From: a virus
Reading direction: 5' to 3' (one strand)
Length of the DNA stretch: 21,709 nucleotides
Virus record (IMG/VR): IMGVR_UViG_3300025889_001088
Coordinates: 1 to 21,709 of that record
Shown here: positions 5,106-21,709 of the stretch, in pieces
Layout: each line of letters opens with the position of its first letter
Numbering within the stretch: position 1 is the stretch's first letter
Notes under the pieces: generated by a model
What the model was told of the DNA's origin: nothing
Database searches by the model: none
Seen by the model: only the letters and a program-made list of their open reading frames with translations
Translations under genes and position numbers: made by a program

Positions 5106-5285
5106 ATGTATACCTATGAAATAAACGGATTGTTCGCAATCATTTACCTTAACGGAACAGAGGTAAACAGGGTTGGTCCGTGGGACCACGATAACCCAAA
5201 CGGACCTGGGATCTGGGCAGAAAACTTTTGTATTGAAAGCAACAAGCCAAAACCTGATCCAGCACCAGAAGAGACGCCTGAGTGA
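5106..5285 (+). CDS. Small hypothetical protein, 59 aa
   Basis: An ATG at 5106, preceded by AAGGA about 10 nt upstream, opens a frame for MYTYEINGLFAIIYLNGTEV, then NRVGPWDHDNPNGPGIWAEN and an acidic, Pro-rich tail (KPKPDPAPEETPE). A GPW...IWA pattern is one I associate with short ORFs beside phage fibre genes, but the function is unknown. The stop overlaps the next start (GTGA), which supports expression as part of the operon. It has a mixed hydrophobic N-terminus but no true membrane helix. Confidence 0.6.
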   Translation: MYTYEINGLFAIIYLNGTEVNRVGPWDHDNPNGPGIWAENFCIESNKPKPDPAPEETPE

Positions 5286-5770
5286 CCGAGCTGGCACCAG
5301 TCCTCACGGGGTGCCACGTCTGCCGTAGCCCCTTCGTCGAGACCATCAATAAGAAGATGCGCGACGGGGTGCCAGACATCAAGATCTCCGAGTGGCTTGA
5401 CGAGAATGCGCAGTACATCAGCCGCATCACCCTCGGCAACCACAAGCGAAAGCACCTCACTGAGCCGCACGAGCGCCTACGACAGCAGGCCGTCAAGGTA
5501 ATGCAGAAGCAGGCGAAGACCATCAAGGCAACGGGCGACCTTGCCTCGCTAGTCCGCGACCACGTTCACGCGGCAGTTGAGCAGGGATTAATGACACCGA
5601 CGCTGGCAGAGGGCCTGCGGGCGCAGGAGATGATTGACCGCCGTCAGGAGAAGGGAGCAGACCGAGAGGTTGCCCTTACGCTCGCTGGAATTTTAGGTGG
5701 CGGGACCACGTACCAAGTAATCGAAGCTACTGAAATAAAACCAATTTCGGGCGGAGAAATGGAACCGTGA
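5282..5770 (+). CDS. Zn-finger/HTH protein, candidate small terminase
   Basis: A 162-aa protein starting at GTG within a GTGA overlap. C11 and C14 (CHVC), together with H54 and H58 (HKRKH), form a plausible Cys2-His2 zinc site around a helix-turn-helix-like stretch (residues about 30-52: IKISEWLDEN..YISRITLGNH). Small phage proteins with this C..C, HTH and H...H layout are seen at packaging loci and have been taken as small terminase subunits or DNA-binding regulators. The rest (65-140) is helical and suitable for oligomerisation. If it is the small terminase it would recognise the packaging site and load the large subunit encoded 3.4 kb downstream, with lysis genes in between. A transcription regulator is the alternative. 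Confidence 0.5.
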   Translation: MTELAPVLTGCHVCRSPFVETINKKMRDGVPDIKISEWLDENAQYISRITLGNHKRKHLTEPHERLRQQAVKVMQKQAKTIKATGDLASLVRDHVHAAVEQGLMTPTLAEGLRAQEMIDRRQEKGADREVALTLAGILGGGTTYQVIEATEIKPISGGEMEP

Positions 5771-6841
5771 TTGCACCGCTTAACCGCAATTATCGTACTG
5801 GCCCTCGTCACATTCTTCCCGTTCAGCATCGCGGCGGCACTGGAAAGTCCCGACGACTGGACGCTGGAGACCGACTCGAATGGAACCTTGACCCTATCGG
5901 AGGACGGCTCTTTTACACTCACTGGAGCGGACAACCCGCCACCAGGGTCAATCACGCAGAACGCCGAAACAAAGTACACCACGCTCGTGGTGGAAGATCA
6001 GGCAATCGGCTTCACCTGGGCCTACTCTACGACCGACTCATCGTATTGGGATACACCGTACTACACAAACTCGGACTCGTGGATCCCGTTCGTGTCGGAA
6101 CTTACGCAGACGGCGAGCGGGTATATCGAGTTGCAGTTGATCGCAGGAAGCCTCTTCGGCTTCAAGATCGTCAGCAAGGACTCGTGCTGCGGGGCAGGAA
6201 ATCTGACCATCGGCGGGATCGTCACACCGACACCTACGCCGAGCCCGACTGCGGAGCCTAGCGTTGAGCCCACACCGACTCCAACGCCTGAGCCGAGTCA
6301 AGAGCCGACGCCGACTCCGACTCCTGAACCTACTCCAGAGCCGACTCCAGACCCAACACCTGAGCCGACTCCTGAACCTACACCAGAACCCACGCCTGAA
6401 CCTACAGTAGAGCCAGAACCGACAGATGAGCCAGAGCCGATTGCCGAACCCGAACCGTCGGAGGAACCGTCAGAAGAGCCTGAGACGACTCCTGACCCTA
6501 CTGACGAGCCTAGCATTGAGCCTGAGCCTAGTGTTGAGCCTACTGACGATCCTGACACCGATCTGCCAACCGTAGAGGAAGCAGTCGGGGAGGCAATTGA
6601 ATCAATAAGTGAGGCATTTGAGAATATCCTTGCGATCACGGAAATCGGTAGTGATCTTAGTGACGAGGAAAAAGAAGGGTCACAACCAGTAGCGGTGGCG
6701 ATTATCTCAAGCCAAATCGCAAGCTCCGCAGCAGCCTCGGCAGTCCGATCAATGGGCGGCAGTAGTGGCGGCGGTGGGGGCGGCGGTGGCGGCGGGATGG
6801 ACAAGCCCCGCAGCAGCCGAAAGGGGATTCGCCGTGATTAA
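5771..6841 (+). CDS. Sec-signal protein with long TP/EP repeat
   Basis: A 356-aa protein of unknown function. The start is TTG directly after the previous stop; no ATG in the frame would keep the signal peptide. Residues 1-23 form a classic signal peptide (basic start, hydrophobic core, cleavage near AAALES). Residues 24-150 form a compact beta-rich domain with [13 protein letters not shown] and a CC pair (DSCCGAG). Residues about 152-266 are a low-complexity Thr/Pro/Glu array. Then comes a probable amphipathic helix ([20 protein letters not shown]), an Ala/Ser-rich helix, a run of ten glycines, and a basic tail ([12 protein letters not shown]). The layout suggests an exported protein spanning or extending through a thick cell wall. 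It lies just upstream of the lysis genes and overlaps the next gene by 8 bp. A role in lysis, surface exclusion or adhesion is speculation. Confidence 0.65.
6224..6570 (+). repeat. Low-complexity TP/EP-coding repeat
   Basis: This stretch codes about 115 residues made almost only of Thr, Pro, Glu, Asp, Ser and Val in two- to six-residue units ([13 protein letters not shown]). The DNA is a degenerate array of CCNACN and GAGCC units, with varied third positions. It also gives a long artefactual open frame on the opposite strand (Gly/Ser/Val repeat), which is not a gene. Such arrays typically form extended wall-spanning linkers and are prone to length change by slippage. Confidence 0.85.
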
Positions 6842-7005: not shown

Positions 7006-7614
7006 ATGAAGTTCAAAGTCAAGTCACAACTAGACCACGTAGAGAAGGGCGGCATCCTTGATGACTGCGGCCCGTCCAGCACGGCAGCCGCCGTGGCGTG
7101 GGCGTCCAAGTACACCGTTGACCCGTCCGCTGGCGATGGCATCAAGGCGAAGGCGAAGGCAACAGGGTTCGTGGAGAAGGAAGGCGTGTCCGACAACGGC
7201 TCGTCCCTCATTGACTTGATTAAGACCGCCAAGGAGATGGGCGCCAAGGCACGATACGCCAAGTCGTGGGACGACGTCGTCCTCTCGGCGCACCGTGGGG
7301 CTGGTCTCATCGTGTGGGTACAGCAGGCTGTTGACTACCCGCCAGTGGAGATCAGCGAGTGGCACAAGAAGTGGCAGAACTACTGGCTAAAGAAGGACAA
7401 GAAGCATATTGTGGTCGGGTATGGTCATATGACGGCAGCGGGTTGGGACGCTGTTGACGGATGGCAGTGGTCGTGTCCCACGAGGAGCGGCAAGGGCAAG
7501 GAGAAGTTCGGGGTCTCCGTGACCGAGGAGCAGCTCAAGCAGATCGCATCAAGCAAGAAGAAACTCACTGGCGGCGCGGCCCACAAGCACGTCGTCATCG
7601 TTGAGTGGAAGTAA
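7006..7614 (+). CDS. C39-like cysteine peptidase, probable endolysin
   Basis: A 202-aa protein starting at ATG 7006, one base past the previous stop. Residues 19-23 read DDCGP, the hallmark of C39-type papain-like peptidases; C21 is the expected nucleophile. The downstream VVGYGHMTAAGWDAVDGW (about 136-153) would supply the catalytic His (H141), and an Asp such as D148 or D151 could complete the triad. Actinophage LysA proteins often carry such a domain to cut peptidoglycan stem or cross-bridge peptides. No signal peptide is present, consistent with release through a holin. The C-terminal ~45 residues are basic (KKKLTGGAAHKH) and could bind the wall. Direct neighbours on both sides encode holin-like membrane proteins. 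A virion-associated or processing peptidase is the alternative. Confidence 0.65.
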   Translation: MKFKVKSQLDHVEKGGILDDCGPSSTAAAVAWASKYTVDPSAGDGIKAKAKATGFVEKEGVSDNGSSLIDLIKTAKEMGAKARYAKSWDDVVLSAHRGAGLIVWVQQAVDYPPVEISEWHKKWQNYWLKKDKKHIVVGYGHMTAAGWDAVDGWQWSCPTRSGKGKEKFGVSVTEEQLKQIASSKKKLTGGAAHKHVVIVEWK

Positions 7615-7623
7615 GGAGTCCCA

Positions 7624-7917
7624 ATGTATAACGACATCAAGGCAGGCATTCGCTGGGTCATCGACAACACGGGTGTTGACGAGGCGCTCATCGAGTTCGG
7701 ACGAACATTTATCACGGTATCCATCTCCGTTGCCCTCGGCTTGGGCATCCCGCTTCTGGACATCAGCGGCGGCGACTTCCGCACCATCATCTCGGCTGGT
7801 CTCGCATCTGGACTCCAGATCTTGATCAAGTTCCTTGACCCGAAGAACACGCAGTTCGGCATCAAGGAGAAGACGCCAGAGGACAAGGCTGCGGCAGAGA
7901 AGCAGTTTGACATCTGA
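7624..7917 (+). CDS. r1t-like holin
   Basis: A 97-aa protein with two hydrophobic segments, about residues 22-44 (ALIEFGRTFITVSISVALGL) and 52-71 (RTIISAGLASGLQILIKFL), joined by LDISGGDF and followed by a charged tail (KEKTPEDKAAAEKQ). The pattern of R-T-F in helix 1, a L-D-x-x-x-x-D-F/W turn and a Gly/Ala/Leu-rich helix 2 matches the r1t-type holin family common in actinophages and lactococcal phages. It would pore the inner membrane to release the C39-like lysin encoded 10 bp upstream. AAGGAG lies just before the start. The last 11 bp overlap the next gene. Confidence 0.75.
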   Translation: MYNDIKAGIRWVIDNTGVDEALIEFGRTFITVSISVALGLGIPLLDISGGDFRTIISAGLASGLQILIKFLDPKNTQFGIKEKTPEDKAAAEKQFDI

Positions 7918-8365
7918 TCGTTGGATCTACGTTGGGGGGACGTTTGACCTATTCCACTACGGACACGCTCGATTCCTTGAGCAGTGTTCCAAATACGGAA
8001 AGGTCATCGTCGCCATCAACACCGACGACTTCTGCGAGCGGTACAAGCGAAAGCCAGTCCTGACGCTGGGAGAGCGGATTGAGTCCGTCGCAGCGTGCAA
8101 GTGGGCAGACGAGGTCATCGTCAACATCGGGGACGAAGACAGCGGCGTCACGATTGACACGATCAAGGACAAGAAGGTCACCCACATCGCCCACGGGGAT
8201 GACTGGACTGGCAACTCGCTCATTGAGCAGCTTGGCATCAGCCAGGAGTGGCTAGACGAGCGGGGTATCTCAATGCTCTACGTTTCATACACCAAAGGTA
8301 TTTCTACAAGCGACATCATCGGGAGAATCAATGGCGACGTTCACGGCGGTTGTCACTGCGCATAA
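7907..8365 (+). CDS. TagD-like cytidylyltransferase
   Basis: A 152-aa nucleotidyltransferase-superfamily protein. Residues 9-20 (VGGTFDLFHYGH) contain the GxFDxxHxGH nucleotide-binding signature with H17 and H20. GDDW at 97-100 and GISTSDIIGRI at 131-141 match the later conserved motifs of glycerol-3-phosphate cytidylyltransferases (TagD) and relatives acting on choline- or ethanolamine-phosphate. It should join CMP from CTP to a phosphorylated polyol or amino alcohol, making a CDP-activated donor; the actual substrate cannot be read here. The start is TTG 7907, the only start codon close to the conserved N-terminus, overlapping the holin by 11 bp. It overlaps the following glycosyltransferase by 35 bp, so the two are coupled and probably work together. 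Confidence 0.8.
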   Translation: MTSDRWIYVGGTFDLFHYGHARFLEQCSKYGKVIVAINTDDFCERYKRKPVLTLGERIESVAACKWADEVIVNIGDEDSGVTIDTIKDKKVTHIAHGDDWTGNSLIEQLGISQEWLDERGISMLYVSYTKGISTSDIIGRINGDVHGGCHCA

Positions 8366-8879
8366 CGACGAGGCTGGGCTTCGCCGCGTGCTAGGCGACC
8401 TCCTGGCGTGGCAGGTACGTAAGCCAGACGAGATCATTGCGCTGGCGTCAGAGATTGACCTGACCAGCCTACGACACGAGTTCCCTTCGGTCATCTTCCA
8501 CGAAGAGCCGAACAAGGAGGACTGGGGCCACGATAAGCGTGCCAAGGGTCTTGACCTTGCCACTTCAGACTATATCGGCTGGTTTAATCACGACGACTCT
8601 TACAACCCAGACTACATCTTAGAGATGATGTGCCACGCCGAAGAAGGCAATGATGTGGTATACTGTGGGTGGTCCAGAGGACACAACCCAGAGTTCAGGT
8701 CAGGAAATTCCACGTCTGGAAATTACATCGTCAGGACGCAGGTTGGCCGAGACGCTGGATATAGTGACCGTCACTATGAAGCTGACGGCACATTCATCAA
8801 CCGCATTGCGGCACTGACCACTTTCATCAAGTTTGTCAACCGCGTCCTGTATTACCACAATGAGGTAAAGTATGCCTAA
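8331..8879 (+). CDS. GT2-family glycosyltransferase
   Basis: A 182-aa protein with a GT-A (family 2-like) fold signature. The N-terminus FTAVVTAHNDEAGLRRVLGD is the nucleotide-sugar-binding start, and WFNHDDSYNPDY (residues 84-95, D88/D89) is the DxD-like metal site after a typical ATSDYIG strand. YEADGTFINRI (149-159) sits where the acceptor-side catalytic acid and the arginine motif usually lie. It is short for the family, essentially just the catalytic core. ATG at 8331 has GGGAG upstream (8321-8325). The partner cytidylyltransferase overlaps its 5' end and the DUF6321-like gene overlaps its 3' end. It may glycosylate a virion protein or a host surface polymer; the acceptor is unknown. Confidence 0.75.
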   Translation: MATFTAVVTAHNDEAGLRRVLGDLLAWQVRKPDEIIALASEIDLTSLRHEFPSVIFHEEPNKEDWGHDKRAKGLDLATSDYIGWFNHDDSYNPDYILEMMCHAEEGNDVVYCGWSRGHNPEFRSGNSTSGNYIVRTQVGRDAGYSDRHYEADGTFINRIAALTTFIKFVNRVLYYHNEVKYA

Positions 8880-9180
8880 GACAGCAGCGTGGCAACGCAA
8901 AGAAGGTCAGAATCCAAAGGGCGGGCTAAACGCTCGCGGTCGGGCTTCGTACAAGGCACAGACTGGTGGCACATTGAAGGCCCCAGTCAAGAGCGGCGAC
9001 AATCCACGTCGCGCTTCGTTCCTTGCTCGTATGGGAAATATGCCAGGTCCTGAACGCGACGAGAAGGGGCGCCCGACCCGACTCCTTCTCTCGCTTCAGG
9101 CTTGGGGTGCTAGTAGCAAGGCGGATGCTCGCACAAAAGCCAAGAATATGTCAGATCGCCTCAAGGCGAAGAAGGCTTGA
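8872..9180 (+). CDS. DUF6321-like basic phage protein
   Basis: A 102-aa basic protein containing TAAWQRKEGQNPKGGLNARG near the N-terminus, then GGTLKAPVKSGDNPRRASFL, RMGNMPGPERDEKGRPTRLL, and LQAWGASSKADARTKAKNM near the end. I recall this conserved set as the DUF6321 family of phage proteins, often encoded right next to the terminase large subunit. The ATG lies inside the end of the glycosyltransferase gene, and the stop overlaps the terminase start as TTGA. Function is unknown. Its charge and position allow a packaging-accessory or DNA-binding role; it is a rival candidate for the small terminase. Confidence 0.7.
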   Translation: MPKTAAWQRKEGQNPKGGLNARGRASYKAQTGGTLKAPVKSGDNPRRASFLARMGNMPGPERDEKGRPTRLLLSLQAWGASSKADARTKAKNMSDRLKAKKA

Positions 9181-10676
9181 AGCCGCTCGATAACGATATT
9201 GCCAGAGACCTTGCTCGCGGTCGGAATGACATCGCATTCTTTGCAGAGCGATGGCTTGGCGTAAGGGGGAACCCTGGGCAGATCAGATGGTGGGAAGCGT
9301 GCGCAGAGCGTGACGATACTGGTTATCGACCGAAATACATCACGACGGTCGTCTCCGCTGGGAACCGTGCAGGAAAGACTCTTGCTATGGCTGTTGTGTG
9401 CCTCCATCACGCGCTATACAAACTAGGGATTGCCAGCCCAGACGCCTCTGACCCACAGTCCTACAAGCGGTGGAGCGACACTCCATACGAGTGGTACCAC
9501 GTAGGAATCCAGCAGGAGACCGCAGAACTGGTCTTCCGCGAGATTGAGACCTTGCTAGGCGGAAGCCATCCAGCGCAGAAGGGTCGCGGATGTGCTATCA
9601 TCAAAGAACTTGGCAAGGTCATTGATACCCAGAAACGGTATCGCGGTGAGTATGCGTGGGTTAAGTTCAACCCCGTGGTCGGCGGCGCAAGCATCCACTT
9701 CCGTACTACCCAGGACCGAGCCAAGGCACTCCTGGGTAAGGATATGAACGGCATCTCGTTTGACGAGGCGGCCTTTGAGCCGCACCTGCTGATGATCTAC
9801 CAAGAGGTGCTCAACCTCCGCCGACTCTCCACTGGTGGTCCACTCCACTTCATCGGGACACCGAGCGAGGGCATCAACGACTACGCGGAACTCTGGGAGA
9901 AGGGCAACCTAGACAACCCAGCGCGAGATGAGAAGTTCATCAGCTTCCGACTCTCCACCCGCGACAACATCGGCTACGGACTGACGCAGGAAAACTTTGA
10001 TGACGTCGTCCGCCAGCAGGCAGAGTACCTGATCCCACAGAACATTGACGGGTACTTCATCGAGGCGCGAGACGCCTTCTTCTGGAGTCAGTCAGTCCTC
10101 GCGCTGTACAAGACGCTTGAGGATGACGTCAAGCCAGTTAGAAACCACCGCTACATCCAAGGCGTAGACCCAGGAATCTCGCACGATGCGACGTGGGCCA
10201 TCACGCTGGACATCACCAGCCGCAACAAGATTCGCGGCGTGCGGATCAGGAAGCGAAGCGGCAAGCAGAGCATCTCCGCAGTGGTGAATATGGTCCGCGA
10301 GGGTCACCTGCTCTACAGCCAAGACGGCGCCTTCTGCACCACCATCGTGGATTCCACTGGTCTAGGTGGCAGGCTCTTCCAGCAGGAGTTCTCAATGATC
10401 CGCCCGCTCCGAGGGTTTGACTTCGGCGGCACGAAGGCGAAGAAGGTGGAACTCCTCAATGACCTCAAGGCAGTGATTGACAAAGGTCAACTGGAACTCC
10501 CAATGGGCGGACCGTGGGATGAACTGAGGAGACAACTCCTGATTTATAAACTAGACGACAAGAAATTAGAACAAGATGCAGTAATGGCATTGGCAATCGC
10601 GGTGCGACACGCACTGAGAAATCCTGAGAAGGGCGTGGAGAATCCCACCTTCACCTATTTTGGAGTGAGTGATTAA
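9177..10676 (+). CDS. terL: Terminase large subunit
   Basis: A 499-aa packaging motor with ATPase and nuclease domains. Walker A is AGNRAGKT at residues 61-68 (K67, T68) and Walker B is GISFDEA at 192-198 (D196, E197). The coupling motif is FIGTPS at 225-230. The RNase H-like nuclease has D331 (IQGVDPGISHDATW), D392 (TTIVDSTGLGG) and D467 (EQDAVMALAI) as likely metal ligands. Length is normal for the family. It drives DNA into the prohead through the portal encoded immediately downstream (TAATG overlap) and cuts the genome. The start is TTG in a TTGA overlap, with AAGAAGG upstream; no ATG lies before Walker A at a sensible position, so TTG is preferred. Confidence 0.95.
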   Translation: MKPLDNDIARDLARGRNDIAFFAERWLGVRGNPGQIRWWEACAERDDTGYRPKYITTVVSAGNRAGKTLAMAVVCLHHALYKLGIASPDASDPQSYKRWSDTPYEWYHVGIQQETAELVFREIETLLGGSHPAQKGRGCAIIKELGKVIDTQKRYRGEYAWVKFNPVVGGASIHFRTTQDRAKALLGKDMNGISFDEAAFEPHLLMIYQEVLNLRRLSTGGPLHFIGTPSEGINDYAELWEKGNLDNPARDEKFISFRLSTRDNIGYGLTQENFDDVVRQQAEYLIPQNIDGYFIEARDAFFWSQSVLALYKTLEDDVKPVRNHRYIQGVDPGISHDATWAITLDITSRNKIRGVRIRKRSGKQSISAVVNMVREGHLLYSQDGAFCTTIVDSTGLGGRLFQQEFSMIRPLRGFDFGGTKAKKVELLNDLKAVIDKGQLELPMGGPWDELRRQLLIYKLDDKKLEQDAVMALAIAVRHALRNPEKGVENPTFTYFGVSD

Positions 10677-20418: not shown

Positions 20419-21390
20419 ATGGCTACGACAACGACCAGCACAACGAACTTTTCTGATCTAGTCACGCAGCTTGTTGCTGCGCGTGCTGAAGAGGAATTGC
20501 GCGCTCGTGCTGTACACGCGATGCCAGGACTTTATGTCCCAGCTCGCTTCATCAAGGGTACGAACACCCTTCGCTATGCTCGTTACGCCGACCTCTCGGT
20601 CAGCACAACGACACTGACTGAAGGCACCGCTCCTACGGACGATGCCCTCACGATTTCATCCGAGTACTTCACCGCTGCGCAGTACGGCGCGACGGTCGCG
20701 GTCTCGGACCTCGCCAACCTTGACTCGCCACACGACCTCATCAGCATCGCTGCTGAGCGTGTTGCCTACAAGGCTGTTCGCTCGATGGACCACCTGGTCC
20801 GCGACGAGATCCACAGCTCCGCTGCAACCAGCGCCATCTTTGGTGCCACAGGTGCAACGACGCTGACGGCAAACACTGCCAATTCGGCTGTTGCCACGGC
20901 GGGCGTGCTTTCTGGCGCGTTCGTTAAGCAGATGGTTGCTCGACTTAAGGGTGCAAACGTTCCTCAGTTTGCTGACGGAACGTATCGCTGCATCATTCAC
21001 CCTGCGCAGGAGTATGACCTTGTGTCCGATACTGCTGTGAATGGCTGGATTGAGTCCCGCAAGTATGTTGACAACACTGGTCTGCTCACGGGCGAGATCG
21101 GTATGTTCGCTGGCGTGCGCTTCATCGTATCTTCAGATGCGAAGGTGTACACCACGGCTGGCGCTTCAAGCGGCAACGTGTACAACGCGCTGTTCCTTGG
21201 CCCAGACGCATACACCATTGGTGACTCGCAGACCCTCCAGAGCTACTTCGTGGCTCCAGGTGGCGATCACTCTGACCCACTCGCTCAGAAGGCGATTGTG
21301 GGCTACAAGATGCGCTTCGGCACCCTCCTCCTTGACGAGGCTGGCGCCCGCTATCGCATCCTGAAGACTCAGGCCACGGTCTCAGTCTAA
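20419..21390 (+). CDS. Major capsid protein, N4-gp56 type (HK97 fold)
   Basis: A 323-aa protein that fits the N4-gp56 major capsid family. It has a Thr/Ser-rich start (MATTTTSTTNFSDL), then GTNTLRYARYADLSVSTTTL, then LTEGTAPTDDALTISSEYF and AAQYGATVAVSDLANL. These are the E-loop and early P-domain features of the family. A VRDEIHSS segment lies near residue 130, and KAIVGYKMRFGTLLLDEAGA near the end is the usual closing strand and helix. Length is normal for the family. ATG is preceded by AAGGAG 9 nt upstream (20404-20409). It forms the icosahedral shell together with the scaffold upstream. Codons favour G/C-ending choices, as expected for a highly expressed gene here. Confidence 0.9.
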   Translation: MATTTTSTTNFSDLVTQLVAARAEEELRARAVHAMPGLYVPARFIKGTNTLRYARYADLSVSTTTLTEGTAPTDDALTISSEYFTAAQYGATVAVSDLANLDSPHDLISIAAERVAYKAVRSMDHLVRDEIHSSAATSAIFGATGATTLTANTANSAVATAGVLSGAFVKQMVARLKGANVPQFADGTYRCIIHPAQEYDLVSDTAVNGWIESRKYVDNTGLLTGEIGMFAGVRFIVSSDAKVYTTAGASSGNVYNALFLGPDAYTIGDSQTLQSYFVAPGGDHSDPLAQKAIVGYKMRFGTLLLDEAGARYRILKTQATVSV

Positions 21391-21536: not shown

Positions 21537-21709
21537 ATGAACGTTCTTGTATGGGGTACTGCCGAGCAGGGACCCTGCGCCTACTTCCGTGGTCATATGT
21601 ATGACGAAGAGTGGAAGAAGATGGGCATCAACGTCAGGCACATTGACAAGGTCAACTTCATTGCCAAGCCTGGAGCGGAAGGGCTATCGCAGGACGAGGC
21701 AATGCGCAA
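21537..21709 (+). CDS. Partial gene, possible GT-B glycosyltransferase N-terminus
   Basis: The frame opens at ATG 21537 after AGGAGGG and remains open to the window edge (57 codons seen). The visible start MNVLVWGTAEQGPCAYFRGH, then a WKKMGINVRHID stretch, has the shape of the first strand, glycine loop and helix of a GT-B fold glycosyltransferase, where a G.x.YxR pattern followed by a hydrophobic strand is common. Only the first fold unit is present, so the call is tentative; other Rossmann-type enzymes start similarly. If right, it would be a second glycosyltransferase in this phage besides the GT2 at 8331. Confidence 0.45.
   Translation, partial: MNVLVWGTAEQGPCAYFRGHMYDEEWKKMGINVRHIDKVNFIAKPGAEGLSQDEAMR

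Follow-up and report, generated by a model that had tools for sequence, protein, structure and literature searches.

The closest described system to the locus analysed in this work is the virion glycosylation of mycobacteriophages. PMC12619734, which cites Freeman 2023, places glycans on the C-termini of the capsid and tail-tube proteins of these phages, and Corndog carries glycosyltransferase and methyltransferase genes inside its head-gene region (PMC4351075). The present locus is similar to that system in that phage glycosyltransferase genes lie in or near the head-gene region together with accessory enzymes. However, it differs in that a nucleotidyltransferase subfamily (CT) is coupled to interchangeable glycosyltransferases (GT), with RmlC-like, RmlD-like, and epimerase-type enzymes in addition, and its glycan is putative. 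An earlier sequence-only reading of this DNA knew of no described system with exactly this pair in this position, and we likewise found no paper that describes the pair. However, it is more widely spread than that reading knew and is already annotated, with its function undescribed, in Streptomyces and Arthrobacter phages.

The window, which is the whole stretch of DNA that was analysed, is a 21.7-kb IMG/VR virus record (21,709 nucleotides) of a freshwater phage and covers roughly half of its genome. The genes of its late operon are tightly packed on the same strand (+) throughout, and overlapping gene pairs run from the holin to the portal. A small membrane protein (7624-7917) is considered holin-like from its position in the lysis region and its only clearly hydrophobic stretch (mean hydropathy 2.0 at residue 29); it has no family match in the Pfam and PHROG searches. 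Its gene overlaps by 11 bp the gene of CT (7907-8365), which starts with TTG at 7907, ends with TAA at 8365, and encodes 152 aa. The gene of GT (8331-8879), a minimal GT-A (GT2-type) glycosyltransferase, starts with ATG at 8331, ends with TAA at 8879, and encodes 182 aa. The overlap between CT and GT is exactly 35 bp (8331-8365). The gene of a DUF6321 protein (8872-9180; PF19846, 3.4e-23), which is kept across the lineage, overlaps GT by 8 bp and the gene of the terminase large subunit (TerL, 9177-10676; phrog_2, 4.9e-17) by 4 bp. TerL has no match among phage GenBank records. The major capsid protein (MCP) is encoded at 20419-21390 (phrog_1357, 1e-44; PF25209 and PF13252), about 11.5 kb from the CT-GT pair, and directly after it lies the 5' part of a GT-B-type glycosyltransferase gene (21537-21709) that is cut by the end of the window. 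The coordinates, the motifs, and the overlap of CT and GT agree with the sequence-only reading. Its placement of the pair between holin and terminase holds for the gene order, but the DUF6321 gene intervenes between GT and TerL and the holin is the protein without a family match.

Upstream of the lysis genes, the window encodes a small conserved protein (5282-5770, CHVCRSPFVETINKKM...), the gene of which lies directly before CT in other clades, and a protein with a long Pro/Thr/Glu repeat (5771-6841). A conserved protein ahead of the holin-like gene (7006-7614) resembles, by eye, an endolysin or a peptidase of the C39 type, and it has no Pfam match and no significant PHROG match. The boundary between the lysis genes and CT looks like a recombination point in this lineage. 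Two relatives have additional genes between GT and the DUF6321 gene (L005, 3975-4730; L012, 8946-9332).

CT belongs to the cytidylyltransferase-like superfamily (PF01467). It scores 70.1 bits against PF01467 where the cut-off is 21 (E 2.7e-19), and the motifs GGTFDLFHYGH, GDDW, and GISTSDII are all present. The predicted structure (pLDDT 88) has the Rossmann-type fold and exhibits Z scores of 14-17 to superfamily members. H17 and H20 are invariant, and the HxGH motif, K47, and R57 are kept in all aligned relatives. GT belongs to glycosyltransferase family 2, as indicated by its score against PF00535 (44.3 bits, cut-off 23.3; E 2.4e-11), its GT-A fold (pLDDT 87), its Asp-rich metal site, and its catalytic Asp; H87-D88-D89 (HDDS) and A151-D152-G153 are invariant in 28 sequences. 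The best fold match of GT is the WrtF fucosyltransferase (Z 20.5), and the GT-A core is common to WrtF, RmlT, TarP, and SpsA (Z 17 to 20.5). However, GT is only about 15-20% identical to these enzymes and ends after the GT-A core. The median dN/dS is 0.083 for CT and 0.136 for GT, values comparable with the 0.094 of TerL, and both CT and GT are under purifying selection. The confident folds, the purifying selection, and the kept catalytic residues indicate that CT and GT are not chance open reading frames.

The substrate of CT was considered by comparison with characterised enzymes. The sequence-only reading had called CT TagD-like and CDP-donor-making, and neither label is retained here. CT is similar to TagD (1coz) in fold (Z 16.9, rmsd 1.8 over 125 residues) and in the HxGH, GDDW, and GIST motifs. 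However, it scores 53.3 bits against the TagD model (TIGR01518), far under the equivalog cut-off of 165.4, and the Arg of RTEGISTT is replaced by a Tyr that is invariant in 35 relatives. It also has an extra segment of about 11 residues (QLGIxxEWLDE). Its lineage encodes sugar enzymes alongside, and no polyol-phosphate polymerase was found among 93 larger open reading frames of three relatives, an incomplete list. Heptose-1-phosphate adenylyltransferase was rejected as an identity too (TIGR02199, 55.8 bits, cut-off 181.5), and the scores for the two models are nearly equal, both well below cut-off. The top-scoring equivalog-level NCBIfam model of CT is RfaE_dom_II (4.4e-15), and its fold resembles HldC (5xf2, Z 14.9), but CT is below the HldE-C cut-off and the HldE-C of E. 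coli sits on a long branch of the CT tree. Among solved structures in a PDB search by sequence, CT best matches ECT (3elb, 2e-26) and CCT (3hl4, 7.6e-12), then TagD and Fom1; ECT and CCT are about 30% identical to CT, have no counterpart of the inserted segment, and differ from CT at the Arg that is Tyr in CT. In fold, TagD, Fom1, the Thermoplasma protein 3glv, ECT, and HldC all lie within about 2 Z units, and the fold comparison is thus not decisive as a guide to the substrate. CT is about equally near to ethanolamine-, choline-, phosphonate-, and heptose-type enzymes, and the label that is justified is a nucleotidyltransferase coupled to glycosylation. A survey of Patescibacteria for cellular contexts of CT matched 8 of 374 genomes and was uninformative on the substrate.

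CT belongs to phrog_7878, a GT-linked CT subfamily, by its profile match (3.4e-23) and by the segment of about 11 residues, Q[LM]G[IF]xxEWLDE, between GDDW and GIST. This segment was found in the CTs of freshwater phages, of actinophages, of L100 (a phage-like contig from the bin of a SAR202 genome), and, in a looser form, of a Gottesmanbacteria polysaccharide locus (L116). It is absent in the alignment from TagD, HldE-C, ECT, CCT, and the LicD-linked bacterial relatives of CT. The family phrog_7878 is annotated as 'bifunctional heptose 7-phosphate kinase/heptose 1-phosphate adenyltransferase'. However, CT has no kinase domain and does not reach the cut-off of the HldE-C model, and the 'bifunctional heptose kinase/adenyltransferase' label that databases give to CT-type proteins is a transferred annotation. 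The replacement of Arg by Tyr was dropped as a marker of GT-linked CTs, as Tyr also occurs in LicD-linked relatives and Arg is kept in actinophages. The tree neither supports nor rejects a single clade of GT-linked CTs (AU p 0.39).

IMG/VR was scanned with CT, and 80 relatives were kept as the lineage set. A GT gene directly follows CT in all 80 loci, of which 60 have the type of the window (type A) and 20 have type B. Type B is about 211 aa in length and matches PF00535 weakly, below the cut-off, and the profile comparison of the two types exhibits a weak likeness (E 2.6e-4, probability 42%). Neither type has a match among phage GenBank records, for type A even at E 0.01. Changes between A and B number eight on the TerL tree, seven of them forced by well-supported branches, and six on the CT tree, all forced, and the two types have been swapped at least six to seven times. 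For example, L015 (A) and L030 (B) have closely related CT and TerL. The tail of CT (H..C.C) lies mostly within the 35-bp overlap and is absent or different where type B follows, which places a cassette boundary within the overlap. In one relative (L059, 730-1623), the CT frame continues into the GT frame; this apparent CT-GT fusion could be natural, or a sequencing or assembly frameshift. The functional coupling that the sequence-only reading had proposed is borne out by the 80 of 80 loci. That reading had also named homologues found apart and catalytic residues lost in relatives as findings that would speak against it, and both the association and the residues of CT and GT are kept.

GenBank phages with CT relatives are mainly Streptomyces phages (63 records) and Arthrobacter phages (4). 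The five annotated actinophages that were examined (Atuin, Mimi, Coruscant, Faust, and Daubenski) all exhibit the order GT-GT-CT with short overlaps. Their CT-GT genes neighbour replication and other non-structural genes, the MCP gene is not adjacent, and kinship of their GTs with types A and B was not shown by profile comparison. In L100, two GT-like genes precede CT, and in L116 a GT2 gene overlaps CT; these GT labels come from reading the sequences.

A second phage group was identified by scanning IMG/VR with the CT of L100, which gave 80 loci; 81 loci were tabulated. These phages are HK97-type. An MCP and a GT-B glycosyltransferase occur together with CT in 48 of the 81 loci, mostly with a GT2 enzyme too, and many of the remaining loci are fragments of the same gene order. 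The commonest order is prohead protease (PF04586), MCP (PF05065), GT-B glycosyltransferase (PF00534), small GT-like protein, CT, and adaptor. The small GT-like proteins, of which a locus has one or two, match PF00535 or phrog_29879, and the adaptor that follows CT is a head-tail adaptor (phrog_442, PF05135). The CT of this group also belongs to phrog_7878 (1.1e-31), and a loose pattern located the QLGIxxEWLDE-type segment in 77 of its 81 CTs. When the products were compared by BLAST with those of the window lineage, only CT was similar (43%, E 2e-42); the MCP, GT-B glycosyltransferase, GT2, and adaptor were not. Therefore, the association of CT with unrelated GTs arose repeatedly.

Two loci encode a protein after CT that looks sulfotransferase-like (L148, 4414-5094; L149, 4401-5105). 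Two scanned downstream genes, probably the same ones, match phrog_3347 (galactose-3-O-sulfotransferase), and this is possibly another modification enzyme linked to CT. In L225 (4001-4705), the open frame of CT extends without interruption through a phosphatase-like domain of the HAD type, and in L153 a HAD-like gene directly follows CT and a NeuB-family gene (PF03102) directly precedes it. These contexts might hint at a sugar-phosphate substrate of CT.

Phages of the window lineage carry a GT-B gene in the interval from MCP to an adaptor of the SU10 type. The window from 21537 onward reads MNVLVWGTAEQGPCAYFRGHMYDEEW..., which resembles the start of the full gene of a relative (L121, 16273-17541; PF13524, 7.8e-7; phrog_7162, 3e-22); the window fragment by itself has no Pfam match. 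This GT-B gene is present in 14 of the 20 relatives tested. GT genes are hence physically linked to capsid genes, as in phage virion glycosylation modules. In all six relatives of at least 37 kb, the GT-B gene after MCP is accompanied by genes for two SDRs and for an RmlC-like protein (PF00908). In the four genomes that were read, the motifs of one SDR (STDYVFD-type and YGxxK-type) mark it as RmlD-like, and the second SDR has SSASVYG and YxxxK but no dehydratase TDE motif, a signature of the epimerase type. Partners of this kind speak for sugar chemistry in the lineage of the window. Their genes lie in the early half of the genome, and their absence from the window is uninformative since the window is only about half a genome. 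No RmlA-type nucleotidyltransferase was found in the six near-complete relatives (control positive in 14 of 14), which makes CT the obvious nucleotidyltransferase candidate. Coruscant and Atuin are without RmlC, and Coruscant is also without an SDR; CT therefore need not feed the RmlC/SDR branch, as Coruscant has the CT-GT genes.

On balance, we consider it probable, if by a modest measure, that CT and GT act at two steps of a phage glycosylation pathway that decorates the virion, probably the capsid, in late infection. From the genes and their neighbourhoods we infer the substrates, the nucleoside triphosphate (NTP), the acceptor, and the biological benefit of this pathway. CT would couple an NTP with a small building block that carries a phosphate, in the likeliest case a sugar phosphate. 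The phage RmlC-like, RmlD-like, and epimerase-type SDR enzymes may shape this donor or a second one. Transfer of the donors to a phage protein would then fall to two enzymes, the soluble GT-A glycosyltransferase next to CT and the GT-B glycosyltransferase next to MCP; the gene neighbourhoods in two unrelated lineages suggest a virion protein, for example MCP, as the most likely acceptor. The same neighbourhoods strengthen the virion modification that the sequence-only reading had favoured, which is plausible. The non-structural neighbours of the pair in actinophages, its distance of about 11.5 kb from MCP in the window, the early-half position of the sugar enzymes, and the two actinophages without RmlC speak against this pathway, as do the LicD-linked relatives in SAR202 bacteria. 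The GT slot would act as an A/B cassette that is exchanged among close relatives next to a constant CT, so that the transferred glycan or its linkage varies and the supply step does not. Such exchange agrees with selection that favours changes in the sugar that is added or in its linkage.

Other roles have to be weighed against virion decoration. The pair might modify the host envelope, where an altered surface glycan of the infected cell would exclude superinfecting phages or stop progeny from re-adsorbing to debris, and such a role has been offered for the GTs of freshwater phages (PMC10202952). The position in the late operon adjoining the lysis genes agrees with this role, as do the fold of GT, which is close to the teichoic-acid and O-antigen glycosyltransferases RmlT, TarP, TarS, and GtrB, and the overlap of CT with a GT2 gene inside the polysaccharide locus of L116. 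RmlC- and RmlD-type enzymes, which are found in the relatives, commonly make surface sugars. However, CT and GT have no obvious membrane segment, the 21 Pfam families that three relatives yielded include no flippase, ligase, or GtrA-type family, and the module of the second group lies between MCP and the head-tail adaptor, as does a GT gene of the window lineage, and we regard an envelope role as unlikely. A teichoic-acid-like or phosphoalcohol decoration is less probable again. Here, CDP-glycerol, CDP-ethanolamine, or CDP-choline would be the product of CT, and its transfer to an acceptor of the phage or of the host would fall to GT or to an enzyme of the host. This reading would agree with ECT, CCT, TagD, and Fom1 as the best solved relatives by sequence. 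In the four bacterial contexts that were read for such neighbours, from Chloroflexi (SAR202) and one gammaproteobacterial genome (L101, L102, L119, and L111), CT relatives of about 40% identity adjoin LicD-family-like genes (GTCLGAVRDGELIPWDDDIDI), which fits CDP-alcohol chemistry over sugar. However, these LicD-linked relatives lack the insertion common to GT-linked CTs, and the low TagD score and the invariant Tyr speak against such chemistry. GT-A enzymes of family 2 normally use NDP-sugars. A scan of 93 larger open reading frames of three relatives at E 1e-4, from an incomplete list that missed CT itself, found none of the LicD, polyol-phosphate polymerase, TagF/priming-type, and CDP-alcohol phosphotransferase families, while sugar-modifying enzymes are encoded in the lineage. 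Overall, the teichoic-acid-like or phosphopolyol product that the sequence-only reading had proposed is not supported.

Phage GTs can also glycosylate DNA, and GT and CT could in principle glycosylate modified bases of the phage genome as protection against nucleases. The actinophage CT-GT genes lie near DNA-metabolism genes, and DNA glycosylation has been proposed for the GTs of freshwater actinophages (PMC10202952). However, no thymidylate-synthase-type hydroxymethylase was found in the six near-complete relatives (control positive in 9 of 14). Proteins of the thymidylate-synthase family are the usual source of hydroxymethyl-pyrimidines, and DNA hypermodification appears very improbable. A search of the six for a Tet/JBP oxygenase gave no match, but its control was silent everywhere. 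The least credible reading, to which we give hardly any weight, is that CT and GT are unconnected cargo that stay together only through operon architecture, as every gene from holin to portal is tightly packed and overlapping. It is at odds with the coupling of CT to different GT families in several unrelated genome contexts and with the 80 of 80 loci in which the GT slot is occupied by a GT and never by a non-GT gene.

The reading of CT and GT as steps of virion glycosylation can be extended, tentatively and with considerable doubt. The specificity of the GT-linked CT subfamily may be new among nucleotidyltransferases, with an uncommon donor as its product (e.g., a CDP-activated alcohol or an NDP-heptose-like sugar). 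Small GT-A enzymes that replace one another would transfer this donor onto capsids as a widespread modular 'capsid serotype' system in unrelated aquatic and soil phages. If the pathway is true, many aquatic and soil phages would bring their own donor-making step for virion decoration and exchange the transferase as a cassette, much as bacteria exchange O-antigen genes. The dozens of cultured Streptomyces and Arthrobacter phages that carry CT with GTs would offer a tractable system. The abundant phage family phrog_7878 would gain a function, and the pathway would help to explain the GTs that lie behind phage capsid genes.
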